This document shows positions 2,682-16,719 of a stretch of DNA of 26,867 nt, one piece after another. Within the stretch, counting starts at the first letter, position 1. Every line of letters starts with the position of its first letter. The position numbers were made by a program, and so were the translations under genes. This DNA comes from a virus. The stretch is taken from positions 18,856-45,722 of the IMG/VR virus record IMGVR_UViG_3300030117_000228; one strand, given 5' to 3'. Below the pieces are notes generated by a model. The model was not told the origin of the DNA and did not search any database. It saw only the letters and a list, made by a program, of their open reading frames with translations.

Positions 2682-2980
2682 GTGTAGAGTACCGTGGTAT
2701 AACATTCCCTGGATACAACAGGCCCATCAAGTCTAACCGTGAAGGTAAGAAGAAGATGGTGTTGGCTAAGAAGGGTGATAAGGTAAAGCTGATTCACTTT
2801 GGTGCTACGGGCTATGGACACAACTACAGTGCTGCAGCCCGTAAGTCATTTCGTGCTAGGCACAAGTGTGACACAGCTACGGACATTCTGTCGGCACGGT
2901 ACTGGGCATGTCGCACTCTATGGGGTGGGGCAGGTAAGCCTAAACAATCTAGTCCTAAATCACGTAAAGGAAAATACTAA
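2678..2980 (+). CDS. Basic protein with FRARHxC...YWACR motif
   Basis: The gene starts at a GTG (2678) overlapping the previous stop and encodes 100 residues, strongly basic (GKKKMVLAKKGDKVK). The central part HFGATGYGHNYSAAARKSF, then FRARHKCD and ARYWACR, matches a small motif family I recall from marine phages and algal or giant viruses. Cys and His are spaced so that metal binding is possible. Function unknown; nucleic-acid binding is an inference from charge. The stop overlaps the next ATG. Confidence 0.7.
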   Translation: MSVEYRGITFPGYNRPIKSNREGKKKMVLAKKGDKVKLIHFGATGYGHNYSAAARKSFRARHKCDTATDILSARYWACRTLWGGAGKPKQSSPKSRKGKY

Positions 2981-3222
2981 TGGGCAAGCACAAGAAAGAT
3001 GTGACTGTTGTTTCAATCGGTGTAGGCACAATGCCAGCCAAGAAACTAAAAGAAATGAAAAAGAAGGCTGAGATGGCGATGGGTGGCATGGCTAACGGCA
3101 AGAAGCATATGTATTCTGCTGGTGGTAATGTGACTGACAAGCTGCCGAACAAAGGTCTGAAGCAACTTGCTAAAACAGAAAAAGGCAAAGCTGCCGTACG
3201 CAATATGGGCTTTGATGTTTAA
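2980..3222 (+). CDS. Lys/Met/Gly-rich small protein (80 aa)
   Basis: The ATG overlaps the previous TAA. The product starts MGKHKKDVTVVSIG, continues with a Lys-rich helix (PAKKLKEMKKKAEMAMG) and has the motif GGMANGKKHMYSAGGNV, a type of Gly-Met-Lys repeat seen in marine phage proteins. It is very basic and without membrane segments. It may bind DNA or be virion-associated, but I do not recognise a named family. It belongs to the run of basic small genes between 2678 and 6095. Confidence 0.65.
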   Translation: MGKHKKDVTVVSIGVGTMPAKKLKEMKKKAEMAMGGMANGKKHMYSAGGNVTDKLPNKGLKQLAKTEKGKAAVRNMGFDV

Positions 3223-3528
3223 GTGGCCCCAAGAGTTCCACGCAAAAAGGGTCAACCTGTAGGTTCAAAAAAACACAGTGACTTATACACAGATGAGAAC
3301 CCCAAAGGAACCATCCACGGTCTTAAATTTGCTACTGTCAAAGACGCTGAAGCATCTGTCCGTAAGATTAGAGCGTCTGGAAAAACACATGCTCATAAGA
3401 CACAAGCGGCGATTGCTATGGAACAACGCGCTAGAGCGGCAGGTAAGAAGGCCGCTGCGGCAGTGTATAGAAATTTTATTAACGCCCAAAAGCGAAAGAC
3501 AAAGCAACGTGCATCCCGTCGAGCGTGA
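3223..3528 (+). CDS. Conserved viral basic protein (DUF5824-like)
   Basis: A 101-residue gene starting at GTG 3223, immediately after the previous stop. Motifs in order: SDLYTDENPKGTIHGLKF (about residues 19-36), a helix with SVRKIRASGKTHAHK (46-60), QAAIAMEQRARAAGK (61-75), then VYRNFINAQKRKTK. I recall this set from marine phages and large algal viruses, where it is a domain of unknown function; the DUF5824 label is from memory. It is strongly basic at the C-terminus. Its end overlaps the next gene by 20 nt. A DNA-binding role is plausible but unproven. Confidence 0.7.
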   Translation: MAPRVPRKKGQPVGSKKHSDLYTDENPKGTIHGLKFATVKDAEASVRKIRASGKTHAHKTQAAIAMEQRARAAGKKAAAAVYRNFINAQKRKTKQRASRRA

Positions 3529-4042
3529 CATACGCACGTGGTCCAGAGACTTTTTAGAGATACCCAATGCTAAACTAAATGGTCTACCGCCTTGCCCCTA
3601 TGCTAGAAAAGCATGGGCTGATGACAAGGTAGTGTTTAGTATTAACACAGGTATAGATGGATTGCTAAGTGCTATCCGTGAGTTTGATGGCCACGACTAT
3701 GATATTGTAGTCTGGGCTGAAGAAGATTTGCCAGACATGGAATACCTAGATGGTCTGTGTGATGGCATGAATGAGTTGATGTCAATAGCTGGTATTGATT
3801 TGCACCTTATGGTGTTCCACCCCGACTATGACGCAACAGAAGCTGGTCTTGAGTTTCTTGTCGATGATGAGGTAACTGATGACAGCTTGTCCTACTGTAT
3901 GGTCTTTGTGCAGAAACTTTCTAAACTAGACGATGCAGCTTTGTATCTGGAAAAGTCTAATTACTACGAACACTTTCCAGAAGACGTTTATGATGCTCTA
4001 GTGCTTGACAGAAGGAGATTGAGAAATGCCAATGCACGGTAA
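3509..4042 (+). CDS. Conserved marine phage protein of unknown function (177 aa)
   Basis: The frame is open further upstream, but that part shadows the preceding gene, so GTG 3509 (VHPVERDIRTWSRDFLEIP) is taken as the start. The region EIPNAKLNGLPPCPYARKAW resembles an N-terminal block that I recall from uncharacterised marine phage proteins. The rest is acidic, with MEYLDGLCDGMNELM and a Tyr/Asp-rich end, in contrast to its basic neighbours. No catalytic motif is recognised. The final codons overlap the next gene, whose AAGGAGA ribosome site lies inside this one. Confidence 0.65.
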   Translation: MHPVERDIRTWSRDFLEIPNAKLNGLPPCPYARKAWADDKVVFSINTGIDGLLSAIREFDGHDYDIVVWAEEDLPDMEYLDGLCDGMNELMSIAGIDLHLMVFHPDYDATEAGLEFLVDDEVTDDSLSYCMVFVQKLSKLDDAALYLEKSNYYEHFPEDVYDALVLDRRRLRNANAR

Positions 4043-4190
4043 AGCTAAAATGGCTAAGAAGAAAATGCGCGGTGGTGGAATGACCAAGATGCGTGGTGGC
4101 GGCATGTCCAAAAAGAAAATGATGATGGGCGGCATGACCAAGAAGAAGAAGATGATGCGCGGCGGCGGTATGGCTAAAAAGAAGAAGTAA
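4026..4190 (+). CDS. Met-Gly-Lys repeat peptide (54 aa)
   Basis: A short gene with a strong AAGGAGAT ribosome site before ATG 4026. The product is almost entirely Lys, Met, Gly and Arg in an imperfect repeat (MAKKKMRGGGMTKMRGGG). There are about four units of the form K-K-K-M-x-x-G-G. It is extremely basic and low in complexity, so disorder and nucleic-acid binding are likely, though this is inferred from composition only. Its stop overlaps the start of the SET gene, making the two a coupled pair. Confidence 0.7.
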   Translation: MPMHGKAKMAKKKMRGGGMTKMRGGGMSKKKMMMGGMTKKKKMMRGGGMAKKKK

Positions 4191-4552
4191 TGCCATATGT
4201 TGCAGATTCGGAAATACATGGACTTGGTGTTTTCGCAGATAGGGACTATGCTCAAGGAGATACAATTGAGTTGTGTCCTTATCTGGTCGCGGATTATACT
4301 GACGTGGGAGATGAGTGTGTCCTCCATGACTATATGTTTCACACACCTTATGTCGATACCGAAGAGTATTACATCCCACTTGGGTTTGCTATGGTCTATA
4401 ACCACAGCGCAAGTCCAAACGCTGAGTGGGACATTGAAGAAGAAGATGAACGCTTTGTTAGGTTTTATGCGCTTAAAGAAATAAAGCAAGGCGAAGAAAT
4501 ACTTCACGATTACGGTGAAGATTATTGGGAAAGTAGAGATGCCCTTACTTAA
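4190..4552 (+). CDS. SET-domain protein lysine methyltransferase
   Basis: This 120-residue protein is essentially a bare SET domain, which transfers methyl groups from S-adenosylmethionine to protein lysines. Visible hallmarks are HGLGVFADRDYAQGD (10-24), the cofactor motif NHSASPN (71-77), and GEEILHDYGEDYW (101-113) with the expected catalytic Tyr in DYG (108). No pre-SET or post-SET Cys clusters occur, as in compact viral and bacterial SET proteins. The ATG overlaps the stop of the Lys-rich repeat peptide. With several Lys-rich small proteins around it, a phage-encoded basic protein is an attractive substrate, but a host protein is equally possible. Confidence 0.88.
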   Translation: MPYVADSEIHGLGVFADRDYAQGDTIELCPYLVADYTDVGDECVLHDYMFHTPYVDTEEYYIPLGFAMVYNHSASPNAEWDIEEEDERFVRFYALKEIKQGEEILHDYGEDYWESRDALT

Positions 4553-4895
4553 TCAAGGTTCTAAATTCAATATATCACTCACGGCAGTAGGAACTTCGGA
4601 TACAGATTGTTATGAGGTTCCTGCTAACTATTCGGCAGTTGTAAAGAACTTGATGTTGACAAATTCAAGTTCTTCAACCCGGCCTTATACGATTAAAATA
4701 TACCAGAAAACTCCCAATACGACGACAACAATAACTAGTGACCATGTTATAGCTAGCAGAGTGGAACACTACATATTCACTGCGGACAAGCCTCTGTTTT
4801 TATCGGCAGAAGATAAGATAACCATAGCGACTAATGCAACAGACCGCATTGTAGCCACGGTATGTGTTGAAGAGTTTTATGACCCCGCAAGATAG
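4539..4895 (+). CDS. Putative beta-sandwich virion protein (118 aa)
   Basis: ATG 4539 (MPLLNQGSKFNISL) is preferred over a GTG eight codons upstream. The sequence alternates hydrophobic and polar residues as in an all-beta domain: VPANYSAVVKNLMLTN, then TIKIYQ, then EDKITIATNATDRIVATV. The same order of elements appears in the 110-residue protein at 24704, which sits in the tail-tip module. I infer a small virion beta-domain related to that protein. It starts inside the SET gene. Confidence 0.6.
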   Translation: MPLLNQGSKFNISLTAVGTSDTDCYEVPANYSAVVKNLMLTNSSSSTRPYTIKIYQKTPNTTTTITSDHVIASRVEHYIFTADKPLFLSAEDKITIATNATDRIVATVCVEEFYDPAR

Positions 4896-4905
4896 GAGAT
4901 AGGAG

Positions 4906-5187
4906 ATGGCACGTGTCTCTAAAAAATCCCCCGCAAAAAAAGTCAAAACCCCACAAGCTAGGGCGAAAAAGAAACCGATTAGAACGCTTAAACTTGCGCC
5001 GGGTGGTGCGGCAAAGAGCAAGAGTCGAGTTAATGAAGCTGGCAACTACACTAAGCCAGCAATGAGAAAGAGACAATTTAATAGAATTAAAGCTGGTGGC
5101 AAAGGTGGAAAGCCTGGACAGTGGTCGGCGCGTAAAGCCCAGATGCTTGCATCAGCTTATAAGAAAGCAGGGGGTGGATACAAATGA
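4906..5187 (+). CDS. Basic protein carrying N-terminal half of a DUF5872-like domain
   Basis: Ninety-three residues with a duplicated GATAGGAG ribosome site. The first 45 residues are a Lys/Arg/Pro/Ala-rich tail resembling histone-tail composition (KKSPAKKVKTPQARAKKK). The rest, FNRIKAGGKGGKPGQWSARK and QMLASAYKKAGGGYK, matches what I remember as the first half of DUF5872, found in bacteria, phages and giant viruses. The second half of that domain appears in the separate gene at 5847. Both halves are strongly basic. Nucleic-acid binding is likely but inferred. Confidence 0.75.
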   Translation: MARVSKKSPAKKVKTPQARAKKKPIRTLKLAPGGAAKSKSRVNEAGNYTKPAMRKRQFNRIKAGGKGGKPGQWSARKAQMLASAYKKAGGGYK

Positions 5188-5416: not shown

Positions 5417-5847
5417 TGCTGGCAGAACTTGCAGCGGCTAATGCCGCATTTAGTGTTATTAAAGCCGCTGTACAGAACGGTAGTGACATTGCCAAGGCTG
5501 GTACTGCCATTGCTAAGTTTGTAGGTGCAAAGGAAGACCTACAAAAGAAGGCTAGCAAAAAAGGTGGCGGCTCTGATTTAGAAGAGTTTATGGCTCTTGA
5601 GCAGATACGTGAAAAGGAAGACCAGTTAAAGCAGCTTATGATTTATGCAGGTCGTCCCGGTCTATGGGGAGATTGGCAACGATTTCAGGCCAAGGCTCGT
5701 GTGGCGCGAAGAGAAGAAGAAATTAGAGTAGCAAGAAAAAGAAAACAGATTATAGAATGGAGCATAGTAGTATTTTTATCTTTAGTAATTTTAGTAGTGT
5801 TGGGTTCTTTGATTGCACTAATACTACACGCACAGGGTAGATTATAA
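5416..5847 (+). CDS. C-terminally anchored coiled-coil protein (143 aa)
   Basis: The ATG overlaps the previous TGA. An Ala-rich helix at the N-terminus (LAELAAANAAFSVIK) is followed by a charged helical middle (residues 55-110; ALEQIREKEDQLKQLM and GRPGLWGDWQRFQAKARV). One transmembrane helix lies near the C-terminus (IIEWSIVVFLSLVILVVLGS) with a short tail. I recall similar proteins in many marine phages without a known role. Topology fits a cytoplasmic coiled coil tethered to the inner membrane. Involvement in lysis or DNA entry is speculation. Confidence 0.65.
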   Translation: MLAELAAANAAFSVIKAAVQNGSDIAKAGTAIAKFVGAKEDLQKKASKKGGGSDLEEFMALEQIREKEDQLKQLMIYAGRPGLWGDWQRFQAKARVARREEEIRVARKRKQIIEWSIVVFLSLVILVVLGSLIALILHAQGRL

Positions 5848-6095
5848 TGGCATTAGCTAAATCACAACGTAGTCTCAAGTCATGGACAAAGCAGAAGTGG
5901 AGAACAAAGTCAGGTAAGCCTAGTGCAAAGACTGGCGAAAGATATTTGCCAGAGAAAGCCATAAAGTCCTTGACAAGTGCTGAATATTCTGCTACAACTA
6001 AAGCTAAAAGAGAAGGCACACGAAAGGGAAAGCAGTTTGTACGCCAGCCTAAATCTATTGCTAAAAAGACTGCACGATTTCGCAGAGGCGGGTAA
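5847..6095 (+). CDS. Basic protein carrying C-terminal half of a DUF5872-like domain
   Basis: Eighty-two residues, ATG overlapping the previous TAA. Motifs SLKSWTKQKWRTKSGKPS, TGERYLPEKAIKSL, SAEYSATTKAKREGTRKGK and the end KQFVRQPKSIAKKTARFR match, from memory, the second half of DUF5872. In single-gene versions this part directly follows the GGKPGQWSARKAQ segment found here in the gene at 4906. The protein is highly basic. The two products may assemble into one domain or have diverged after the split. Confidence 0.75.
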   Translation: MALAKSQRSLKSWTKQKWRTKSGKPSAKTGERYLPEKAIKSLTSAEYSATTKAKREGTRKGKQFVRQPKSIAKKTARFRRGG

Positions 6096-12028: not shown

Positions 12029-12179
12029 TTATATAGAGAGTTTAATTACAATACAACAAAAGTCATTGGAACAAGCGGACAATGAAATCTTATTGTATCG
12101 TTCACAGGGAGCGATAGCCGTGTTGAAAAAGATGCAGCAGCTAAAAAATGATGTGGTAACACAAGATGTCAATATTTAA
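11961..12179 (+). CDS. Small helical protein overlapping the portal gene (72 aa)
   Basis: This frame begins inside the portal gene (ATG 11961, AAGGA ten bases upstream; ATG 11940 is an alternative) and extends past its end. The product reads MDKELLSKLKPLVNSKQWPH, then SLEQADNEILLYRSQGAIAV, a fully protein-like helical sequence I recall from other marine phages. The overlap of about 70 nt means the portal's disordered tail and this N-terminus share DNA. Function unknown; its position hints at a head-assembly accessory. Its end overlaps the next start. Confidence 0.75.
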   Translation: MDKELLSKLKPLVNSKQWPHFSNYIESLITIQQKSLEQADNEILLYRSQGAIAVLKKMQQLKNDVVTQDVNI

Positions 12180-15100
12180 AAAACACTCACGTAAAGAAGT
12201 TGTTCGCGCTATTGAGGCGCATGAGGTAGGTCCGTACAAGGATACTAAAGAGGGCTGGCCCTATATCTTTACGGGTGTGTCTAGGAAGAAAAACCCATCA
12301 TCTGCTTTTGGTCCTAGACAAATAACGTACTCTACCATTAACAATGCCATTGCCGCGTATAAAGATAGAGGAAATGAACTCTCACCAGAGTTACAAGCAT
12401 ATGCAGATAAACTCATTGCACAAGGAAAAAATAAAGTAAATTTAGACCAAGGTGCAGCAAAGTTTTATAGTGAAGCAGGTATAGGCATTAAGCGTGAAGC
12501 AACAGCAGAGGATAGAGCATCCTTTGGTTCTTTTGGCACTGGTTTTATTCCTAGAGAAGACCACGAAAAATATTATGACGAAATAGCTGATATTGTATTT
12601 GATGAAAAACTTAGAGAAGCTAAAGCACTGGGCGTTACGGACCACAACGGTTTTCTGCGCGTTTATCATGGTAGTGAAAACCCAGAGAACAATTTAGATT
12701 ATCAAGATAAAGTTAATAGATATTTAGAAGACCCAAGTTTGATAGGCCGTAAACCCGGTCTTTTTGGCATGGGCATGACTGTCCCAATATTTGGAAAACA
12801 AATTGGCTTTAACGAAGGTGGAGATGTACCAGCCAGCGAACAAACAGATAAGCTATTATCAAAAGAGAATGTAAAAGATGCAGCTATGTTTGGCGCGGAA
12901 TTTATTCCGGGCGTAGGTGAAGCATTGGCTATCAAGCGCACGTCAGATGCGTTAGATAAAAAAGATTATTTGGGTGCAGGTATTGAGGCAACCGCTGGTC
13001 TTCTTGGTATTATTCCGGGCGTAGGTGATTTAGCTGGTAAGGGGCTACGCACAGCTACTAAAGCATTTCGTAAGGCAGATGTAGAAGAGGCTGAGAAACT
13101 TATTGATAATCCTGACCTACTTAAAAAATGGGAAAAAGATAATACACTGCCTGAAAGTCAGCGTCAAAAAAATATACCTGAAGCAGAGAAAGCAGCAGAA
13201 GATTTATATCAGGGTGAAATAACATCTAAAGAAGCACGTACACGTATTAAAGAGGCTTTCCCAGAGCCTGAATTGTATACTGCAAATACAATGCCTGATA
13301 TGCCTACAGTAACTGAGGTTGCAGGTTCTATGGGCAAAAAAGCCCTTACAAAAGGTATTGTGGGGGTTAAGGGTTTTGATTTAGAGGCTGGTCAACGGCT
13401 TGGTGCAAGATTAGATATCCCTGCATATAATCGCTTTGATAAGTGGGTAGTATCTATTCACGATGGAAATTCATCAAAGGGTAAAGTTGTTGGCTACGGT
13501 CAAGCTATTAGACTCAAAAATATTAAGTTTGGTTCAGACCCTAAAATTGCTTTAAATATTGCTAGAGGAAAAACATTTTCCCCAAAAAAAGGTAAAGACG
13601 TTCCTTTCGGCAAATCTACTATTGCCCGTGTATATGGCGACTATGTACCAGAAGACCCATATGAACTACAGGATTTTGCTAGAAAAATATTAGCTGACAA
13701 AGATTCTGGTTGGACGCAAGTAGGTATGAACCCATATAGGGGTAGTTATTTTTATGATAAAGCAACAGGAAATCTTGTAACTAGTGCAGATGAAGTTATT
13801 CAGGTTGGTCCTCTAGTTCTTGCAAAAAATGTTGTAGGGCTAGGTATGGATAAAAAACCAACATTGTCTGAAGTAAAAGAGGTTTTAAGCACTCCTGTAG
13901 CTAGAACCAAAGACGGCAAACTTAGAACTTTTAACGTAGGTGGAGATGTTTCAATGCAGAAACAAATGGAACTATTTAATGAGGGCGGCCTCATGGATGA
14001 AGGAGGAACAATGGACCCCATATCCGGTAATGATGTTCCAGTAGGCTCACTGCAAAAAGAAGTACGCGATGACATACCCGCCCAACTTAGCGAGGGCGAG
14101 TTTGTAATGCCAGCCGACGTTGTACGCTATCATGGACTAGACAAAATGATGGCACTACGAGATGAAGCAAAGGCTGGCCTTGCACGTATGGAAGCGATGG
14201 GACAGATGGGTAACGCAGACGAAGCCACAATTCCTGATGGCATTCCATTTAACATGGATGACCTGATTATGGATGATGAGCCTATGCAGATGCAGGTTGG
14301 CGGTTTTGTGCCGCAGCTTCAGCCATACACTTCTTTGCAGGGACAACAACCCACTGGGTTTGTACAGCTTCAAGAAACCGCACCCGTTCAGGAACGCATT
14401 GCAAGCCCGTATGCAATTGCTGAGTCGCCGCAACAAACTGGTGAACTAATTACAGCAGAGCAGCTTGTGCCGCGTGTTCAAACAGAATTTAAAACATATG
14501 TTAATGCGCAGGGCCAGACCCTTCAGATACCGTTCATTAATGGTCAACCCCTGTACCCAATTCCACCGGGTTACACTTTACAGTCAGTAGATGCTCAACA
14601 AGACCCTGTGCAACGAGAACAAACAGTACAGGCTCCGGCACAACCTGTGCAACGAGATGACCCATCTGACACGCAGGACACTCCGCAAGGTGGTGTAGCT
14701 GTATTTGGTGGTACAGTTTCTGATGGTCGTATAATTGGAGCGACAAAATATGACCTATCCTATAGTTCTAGTGGAGAAACTGCACCCGGTTTACTTGGAG
14801 CCTTAACAGGACGTTTTGACCGTGTTACACTTACACGACGGGATGGTAAAAAAGCAACCATGTCACGTGATTTATATAATCGACTAAAAGAAGATAGAAC
14901 AAGCCCTGAAACCACACAAATAATAAATCAGTTATTTAATTACACTGATGCAGCTAATCAACAAATTAATCAGTCAACAGGATTAGAGAGAGGATTTCTA
15001 GGTTTTGGTGGTAACAGGAAAGAGTTAGAAAACAGTGCCGCCCGTGAAATATATGAGGACTTAGGTTTAGAATATAAAAATCAACCGTTAGCTGAAGCAC

Positions 15101-16719
15101 TTATGGTGCAAGCAGAAACAGAGAGAGAAGAAGCCACAACAGCACAACCAACAGTAACACCGACTCCAGCAGATATTGACTACGAAGGCGTAGTAGCAGG
15201 TGAAGCTGCACGTATGGCAGAACAAGGTTTTCCGGCAAGAACACCGGACGGTATTGGCACTGGACCACTTCCTAGTGCCACACTTACAACTACTGGACCA
15301 AGGTCTAGCCCAATTATGGCTGGCGGCTCAAACGTAGGACAACTAAGCACAGGTCGTCCAGCGACTACGGGTGACATTGCTAGATTGTTTGGGCAAGAAA
15401 CTAAAAGACTATCTCCAACAGGCACGGTGACTAGTTTTGACCCAGCAGGTGTTGGTTTTCCTGTTGGCACAAGATTATCTCCTGTAGAAGAACAACTATC
15501 AGATTCAATGCGCATGGAACGTATTGATGCGCCAACAACAACAGTGCAAAATATTTCAGAGGTTCCAGTTATTACAGTAGCAAATATGGGTGGTGCGTTT
15601 AGAGATGCTCAAGGTCGTCGCTCTAATCGTTATGCACAAATTGGGGATGATTTATTTAGATTTAAAAGAGATGGAACACTAGCTTCTGAACCAGCCAGAA
15701 ATTTAGATACTCTTGCAATTCGTAATGATGGCAGTAGTGTTATGAGTAGAACAACATCTCTTTTACAACAGCCTGTAGAAATGTCAACTCCAATGTCACG
15801 TCCAACAGCACTTGAACGCGATGTAGGCGCACGTCTTCTTCCATCAGATAGAAGGCTCATTGAAATTGCAAGGGAAGAGGAGCGTCGTCGTCAACCAAGT
15901 TCATTTGAAGTTCAAGCTATGGCAGACCGTGACGACAGTCCGTCACTTACCCCAGCGGAAATCGAAGCACAGGCAGACCGTGACTTTAGTAACCAGTTGA
16001 TAAGAGATGAACAAAACAGACAGGCAGAGATTGAGCGTGAAAGATTTGAACGTGAAGAAAGACGAGTTGCCGCAGAAACAGAGAGAAGAAATAGAGAAGA
16101 ACAAGAAGAAAATGTAAGGCAAGGACGAGGTAATATTGTCACAGATAGTTCTGGTCGTCCTGTAACTTCCCGAAGCACAGGTCGTGCGGTGACAACAGCT
16201 AGAGGTCAGCAACTTCGTGAAAGAGATGCTGCAGGTAATGCTGCTATTGAGCGTCAAGCAGACGCGTTGCGTAAAGACGCAGACGATAGAGAACGTGCAG
16301 AGGCAAGTCGCAGAAGTGAACAACGAGTGCAAGAAAAAATTGCATCAGGTGTTGACCCCGAAGCTGCTGCATTTGAAAGTGGCGGCAATGAACCTAGTGG
16401 TGGCACATATTGTTGCACCGCATCGTGGAAGCGTAATCAGATGACCATCACAGAAATTAAAGAACTGCGTAGGTGGCATCGTCAACAGTCCAGTATGTGG
16501 CAAGAGGGATATGATATCTGGGGCAAGTGGGTTGCAGATAATCTTGTTGCCAAATCAGATTGGTCAGCATCCGTTGTTAAGGATGTGTATGAAGCATTCA
16601 TTAATAAAAAGTATACTGTAAAGGGCTTGATTGGTCTGTCAGTAATTATTCCTGGCGTGTATGCCACAGCTATTTATCGGAGAATAAAGAACTATGGACG
16701 AGTTACTTGCACTAATTAG
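12166..16719 (+). CDS. Giant multi-domain internal virion protein (1517 aa)
   Basis: The longest gene in the window. Residues 1-155 look like a lysozyme or transglycosylase fold: AIEAHE with Glu20, then NPSSAFGPRQIT (44-54). A Gly-rich hydrophobic segment spans about 240-305. Residues 370-558 hold a domain ending WTQVGMNPYRGSYFYD and ADEVIQVGPLVLAK, which I recognise as one of the large polyvalent protein-associated domains. Next comes QLSEGEFVMPADVVRYHG (about 640-660), a block common in marine phages, then Pro/Gln-rich disorder, a charged coiled coil (1238-1395) and a C-terminal domain from GGTYCCTASWKR (1412) with two Trp-rich helices. I infer a protein packaged in the head and ejected into the cell. 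Confidence 0.8.
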   Translation: MSIFKKHSRKEVVRAIEAHEVGPYKDTKEGWPYIFTGVSRKKNPSSAFGPRQITYSTINNAIAAYKDRGNELSPELQAYADKLIAQGKNKVNLDQGAAKFYSEAGIGIKREATAEDRASFGSFGTGFIPREDHEKYYDEIADIVFDEKLREAKALGVTDHNGFLRVYHGSENPENNLDYQDKVNRYLEDPSLIGRKPGLFGMGMTVPIFGKQIGFNEGGDVPASEQTDKLLSKENVKDAAMFGAEFIPGVGEALAIKRTSDALDKKDYLGAGIEATAGLLGIIPGVGDLAGKGLRTATKAFRKADVEEAEKLIDNPDLLKKWEKDNTLPESQRQKNIPEAEKAAEDLYQGEITSKEARTRIKEAFPEPELYTANTMPDMPTVTEVAGSMGKKALTKGIVGVKGFDLEAGQRLGARLDIPAYNRFDKWVVSIHDGNSSKGKVVGYGQAIRLKNIKFGSDPKIALNIARGKTFSPKKGKDVPFGKSTIARVYGDYVPEDPYELQDFARKILADKDSGWTQVGMNPYRGSYFYDKATGNLVTSADEVIQVGPLVLAKNVVGLGMDKKPTLSEVKEVLSTPVARTKDGKLRTFNVGGDVSMQKQMELFNEGGLMDEGGTMDPISGNDVPVGSLQKEVRDDIPAQLSEGEFVMPADVVRYHGLDKMMALRDEAKAGLARMEAMGQMGNADEATIPDGIPFNMDDLIMDDEPMQMQVGGFVPQLQPYTSLQGQQPTGFVQLQETAPVQERIASPYAIAESPQQTGELITAEQLVPRVQTEFKTYVNAQGQTLQIPFINGQPLYPIPPGYTLQSVDAQQDPVQREQTVQAPAQPVQRDDPSDTQDTPQGGVAVFGGTVSDGRIIGATKYDLSYSSSGETAPGLLGALTGRFDRVTLTRRDGKKATMSRDLYNRLKEDRTSPETTQIINQLFNYTDAANQQINQSTGLERGFLGFGGNRKELENSAAREIYEDLGLEYKNQPLAEALMVQAETEREEATTAQPTVTPTPADIDYEGVVAGEAARMAEQGFPARTPDGIGTGPLPSATLTTTGPRSSPIMAGGSNVGQLSTGRPATTGDIARLFGQETKRLSPTGTVTSFDPAGVGFPVGTRLSPVEEQLSDSMRMERIDAPTTTVQNISEVPVITVANMGGAFRDAQGRRSNRYAQIGDDLFRFKRDGTLASEPARNLDTLAIRNDGSSVMSRTTSLLQQPVEMSTPMSRPTALERDVGARLLPSDRRLIEIAREEERRRQPSSFEVQAMADRDDSPSLTPAEIEAQADRDFSNQLIRDEQNRQAEIERERFEREERRVAAETERRNREEQEENVRQGRGNIVTDSSGRPVTSRSTGRAVTTARGQQLRERDAAGNAAIERQADALRKDADDRERAEASRRSEQRVQEKIASGVDPEAAAFESGGNEPSGGTYCCTASWKRNQMTITEIKELRRWHRQQSSMWQEGYDIWGKWVADNLVAKSDWSASVVKDVYEAFINKKYTVKGLIGLSVIIPGVYATAIYRRIKNYGRVTCTN

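Follow-up and report, generated by a model that had tools for sequence, protein, structure and literature searches.

A putative vSET-like lysine methyltransferase in a variable gene slot of HMO-2011-type marine phages

In the stretch of phage DNA analyzed here (the window; 26.9 kb, taken from an IMG/VR record of 45.7 kb) a gene for a SET-domain protein begins exactly where that of a Lys/Met/Gly repeat peptide ends. This arrangement raises the question of whether the phage encodes a methyltransferase together with its own substrate (the enzyme/substrate pair that an earlier note on this DNA had suggested), or whether the two genes merely adjoin and the enzyme acts elsewhere. SET-mediated protein-lysine methylation has received little attention in bacteria and phages, and we found no paper on SET proteins in HMO-2011-type phages or on the substrate of a phage SET.

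The SET gene and the phage that carries it

The terminase encoded in the window is 87.6% identical to that of Puniceispirillum phage HMO-2011 and the coat protein 78.9% identical to that of Roseobacter phage CRP-345; judged by these two proteins of the group, the source is an HMO-2011-type marine podovirus. Its host may be SAR116 (the host lineage of HMO-2011), but Roseobacter is infected by isolated HMO-2011-type phages as well. The structural region between the portal and coat protein genes harbors a 1517-aa ORF (12166-16719) in which repeats and GG motifs are abundant.

The SET ORF (4190-4552) matches Pfam PF00856 (E 2.3e-14; 54.1 bits versus a cut-off of 22.4), and its best match by sequence among solved structures is vSET of Paramecium bursaria chlorella virus 1 (PBCV-1; 1n3j, E 8.9e-16). 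The AlphaFold model of the protein (mean pLDDT 83.8) was found to share its fold with Plasmodium PFL0690c (Z 15.2) and with vSET (Z 14.5), with 101-105 residues aligned. Among 37 aligned phage homologues the residues G11xG13, Y48, N71-H72, P76-N77, Y108-G109 and Y112-W113 are invariant, and a median pairwise dN/dS of 0.17 indicates purifying selection. The product is strongly acidic (pI 4.1, net charge -23) and qualifies as vSET-like, being a minimal stand-alone SET with a YGxDYW.SR end. The compact SET enzyme with intact cofactor and catalytic motifs described in the earlier note is thereby borne out by domain match, fold and invariant residues alike, and the ORF seems to encode an intact, active-looking vSET-like protein-lysine methyltransferase with predicted catalytic activity. 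One related record (G412:C1:47516-47866, the record of locus L355) contains a SET match with a single internal TAA, possibly a decaying copy.

Table 1. Features of the SET locus, in window coordinates.
Feature	Position	Strand	Basis or remark
Basic 80-aa protein, pI 10.2	2980..3222	+	ORF list, pI computed
Basic 101-aa protein, GTG start, pI 11.5	3223..3528	+	ORF list, pI computed
Acidic DUF1415-like protein (phrog_28122), GTG start, end overlaps peptide-gene start	3509..4042	+	phrog_28122, E 1.5e-74
Lys/Met/Gly repeat peptide, 54 aa, pI 12, net +20	4026..4190	+	Kept whether or not the phage has SET
TAATGCC junction, where the peptide stop runs into the start of the next gene	4188..4194	+	Same junction before SET or DN in relatives
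Putative SET-domain protein-lysine methyltransferase, vSET-like, 120 aa	4190..4552	+	Pfam, vSET match, fold, motifs, dN/dS
Gene DN (phrog_1276, weak match)	4539..4895	+	Start overlaps SET stop; directly behind peptide in many SET-less relatives
Basic 93-aa protein (phrog_17747), pI 11.9	4906..5187	+	Occurs with or without SET
Basic 82-aa protein (phrog_14910), pI 11.6	5847..6095	+	Occurs with or without SET

Gene order behind the peptide in related phages

The peptide's TAA and the ATG of SET share one base (the final A of the stop codon, at 4190; both genes on the + strand), so that the overlap of the SET start with the stop of a 54-residue Lys/Met/Gly peptide, reported earlier, is exact. Synteny in relatives had been proposed as a check, with a lack of conserved adjacency counting against a pair; we found the adjacency to be conserved instead. 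From 80 SET relatives in viral contigs we obtained 68 loci with room upstream (the window included), and in 59 of them a Lys-rich peptide ends at the SET start (offset 0 in 52, -1 in 7). Eight of the nine exceptions form a distinct SET lineage (49-53% identity) with another genomic setting, while the ninth (L063/L106) has the order peptide, DN, SET. The reading frame of the peptide is conserved as well: 39 distinct versions lie upstream of SET, and repeat units were gained or lost in frame.

By anchoring the comparison on the upstream gene (phrog_28122), the bias of a SET-based search was removed. The peptide was detected by script in 76 of the 77 loci with room and by inspection of the sequence in the remaining one; the gene directly behind it is SET in 52 loci, DN in 19 and a different one in 5. 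Within the SET-bearing loci fetched in this way the peptide adjoins SET in 52 of 53. Occupancy of the slot by SET follows the identity of the upstream protein (22/22 at >=90%, 17/18 at 80-90% and 13/36 at 70-80%), and in the wider collection SET was absent from all phages with 29-47% identity (several of these loci being fetched via the peptide pattern). It is likewise missing from the whole HMO-2011 record (55,282 bp), in which the peptide is present, and from near-full peptide-bearing records of 58,718, 54,923 and 55,873 bp. Parsimony places 6 gains or losses of SET on the upstream-gene tree, only 2 of which are forced by well-supported branches. Many of the records behind these counts are incomplete and some loci almost repeat one another; distinct sequences are counted where stated.

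Judged by gene content, SET and peptide are not an obligate pair (found together, never apart), as each occurs without the other; what links them is adjacency, not a demonstrated enzyme-substrate relation. SET would instead appear to be an accessory cassette, inserted in a variable slot behind a conserved two-gene unit (the DUF1415-like gene and the peptide).

The junction itself does not single out SET, since TAATGCC is found, depending on the phage, between peptide and SET, between peptide and DN, or between SET and DN. A simple reading of this is that genes were exchanged as modules at short junctions which they have in common. The TAATG overlap was consequently rejected as a mark of specific coupling between SET and peptide, as other genes are preceded by the same junction. 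Phages without SET conserve the peptide just as well, its C-terminal ...RGGMAKKKK included. One difference was nevertheless recorded: the motif AK[MT][AS][KR]K occurs in 68 of 69 peptides of SET-bearing phages versus 3 of 43 from SET-less ones, a contrast that is confounded by ancestry and comprises two supported independent comparisons only, on which account we did not count it as evidence of co-adaptation, although it leaves room for it.

What the SET enzyme may act on

When bacterial and archaeal genomes were scanned, the closest cellular SETs retrieved were SAR116 and related alphaproteobacterial genes (47-57% identity) on chromosomal contigs. In the SAR116 homologues the cofactor and catalytic motifs (GxG, NHxxxPN, YG) are invariant too, except for the P, and phage and SAR116 SETs both end in HDYGxxYWxxR. 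Within the order of one SAR116 genome carrying a close homologue, 46 of 98 genomes encode SET, and among 289 Alphaproteobacteria strong matches were restricted to the SAR116 order (best other match 7e-17). A vSET-like gene is found in about half of the sampled SAR116-order genomes (L270-L313). A tree was built on 123 columns, which leave its deeper branches unresolved. In it the peptide-linked phage SETs fall into a single clade (98/94 support; L251 and L269 apart), while the second phage lineage, which has no Lys-rich neighbour, groups with SAR116 genes (92/84 support).

The chromosomal SETs are stand-alone, uncharacterised genes in varied neighbourhoods and, unlike the window SET, have no Lys-rich peptide beside them. 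We dropped their gene neighbourhood as a clue to the substrate, as no conserved neighbour (neither a basic peptide nor any other pointer) was present in the 3-kb flanks. Of 101 SAR116-order genomes just one showed the C-terminal pattern of the peptide, on a phage-like contig. The idea that the acidity of the enzyme points to a peptide partner was rejected too, because the SAR116 SETs are acidic as well (median net charge -14).

We reason that the phage SET is an accessory, host-related lysine methyltransferase that acts in trans and whose target is probably a protein of the host, and we give this reading an even chance of being correct. It draws on the intact motifs and fold, the kinship with SAR116, the lack of a peptide neighbour in the host SETs and the variable slot. 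Accordingly worded as a mechanism, an HMO-2011-type phage would carry a SET cassette related to the chromosomal gene of SAR116, and during infection the enzyme would methylate, in trans, the lysines of a host target, which is probably of the kind modified by its host relative; it would not be a dedicated partner of the peptide. Sequence and model show the fold and motifs of SET, the purifying selection, the relation to SAR116 genes, the variability of the slot and, independently of SET, the conservation of the peptide with its upstream partner; that the enzyme is active, that the phage infects SAR116 and that a host protein is the substrate we infer. Against such action in trans speaks the position of the peptide, almost always directly upstream in the main SET-bearing clade, which a substrate pair would predict likewise; so does the AK[MT][AS][KR]K contrast, and so does the infection of Roseobacter by isolated HMO-2011-type phages.

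Characterised SETs provide precedents for more than one kind of target. vSET (A612L) of PBCV-1 trimethylates H3K27 of the algal host's histone H3 and is carried within the virus particle (PMC7019647). It resembles the window SET in being a stand-alone viral SET (119 aa) with NHS and YG(D/E)DYW.SR motifs; its host, however, is a histone-bearing alga, whereas the phage presumably infects a bacterium, which would lack such histones. Go1-SET of Methanosarcina mazei, a prokaryotic SET, is reported to methylate the basic DNA-binding protein MC1-alpha in vitro (PMC3980110, PMC6776556), but this enzyme is archaeal and MC1-alpha is a folded nucleoid protein instead of a repeat peptide. Both a host histone and a DNA-binding protein have precedent as substrates. 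Phage-encoded SETs are also present in the Stenotrophomonas phages Moby and Mendera, where they are distant (~34% identical); that of Moby lies among small hypothetical genes and has no annotated basic-peptide partner. By being shared between an abundant marine phage group and SAR116, the subfamily offers a defined combination of phage and host for seeking the substrate of a bacterial SET.

The pair suggested earlier, here taken to mean that SET would methylate the adjacent Lys/Met/Gly peptide and tune its binding to DNA, RNA or membranes, we regard as unlikely. Part of that proposal stood, namely an intact phage-encoded enzyme and a conserved adjacency (seen in both the SET-anchored and the upstream-gene-anchored loci); exclusive pairing did not, given that the peptide is kept without SET and the slot is shared. 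The opposite charges of the two products (-23 and +20), the motif difference between peptides of SET-bearing and SET-less phages and the activity of Go1-SET on MC1-alpha all agree with a pair, yet the same slot and junction serve other genes, host and second-lineage SETs do without the peptide, and the acidity of the enzyme, found in SAR116 as well, is no special fit to it. Still less probable, in our estimation, is the more specific proposition that phages with a SAR116-type SET methylate the Lys-rich peptide of the preceding gene at AK[MT][AS][KR]K, as a phage analogue of histone-tail modification.

The methylated proteins might instead be further products of the phage, either small basic ones or virion components encoded nearby, with an effect on packaging or stability. 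The run of very basic small proteins noticed before is real (six small ORFs between 2678 and 6095, with pI of 10.5, 10.2, 11.5, 12.0, 11.9 and 11.6), and vSET is itself packaged in virions (PMC7019647); these neighbours, however, occur in SET-less phages too, none of them being specific to SET-bearing ones, and no proteomic evidence for the HMO-2011-type group was found, for which reasons we consider such targets rather improbable. Least credible is that SET is a passenger with a weak or no present role, moved by local recombination at TAATGCC junctions, as the variable slot, the shared junctions, the gains and losses (at least 2, by parsimony 6) and the one copy with an internal TAA would allow, since a dN/dS of 0.17 and active-site residues invariant over distant phages oppose it.

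The acidic upstream gene as partner of the peptide

On gene order, the conserved partner of the peptide is the DUF1415-like gene before it (3509-4042) and not SET, and of the two pairings this one has the stronger support. All 112 distinct loci show the end of that gene overlapping the peptide start, even where its product is only ~30% identical. This product (pI 4.3, net -20) mirrors the charge of the peptide (net +20). Translational coupling of two such products, one acidic and the other very basic, suggests that the upstream protein may serve as carrier or chaperone, or that the two may form a complex. The match to DUF1415 is weak (best E 6.5e-5, 10/38 members), and the structure yielded no confident fold match (best Z 5.1).

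In HMO-2011 and CRP-345, too, the acidic gene is present and runs into the frame of a Lys/Met/Gly peptide (HMO-2011, unlike the window, having no SET). The comparison exposes a deeply conserved, largely unannotated pair. The peptide is annotated as a hypothetical protein in CRP-345, while in HMO-2011 the conserved Lys-rich 50-aa ORF (L138:4497-4649) is absent from the annotation. The acidic/basic gene pair (3509-4190 in the window) recurs, mostly unannotated, in diverse marine phages and could be a functional pair in its own right. A phage-like contig binned with a SAR116-order genome (L394) also carries the upstream gene (29% identical) and the peptide.

Beyond this gene pair, the Lys/Met/Gly repeat was observed as a C-terminal tail on differing N-terminal domains (L027, L036, L058, L099, L103, L164, L220), some of them helix-turn-helix-like, and so resembles a portable module. 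The C-terminal ...GGMAKKKK is likewise found on several other small basic proteins, encoded by marine phages in which the phrog_28122 gene is missing (several among L147-L217).
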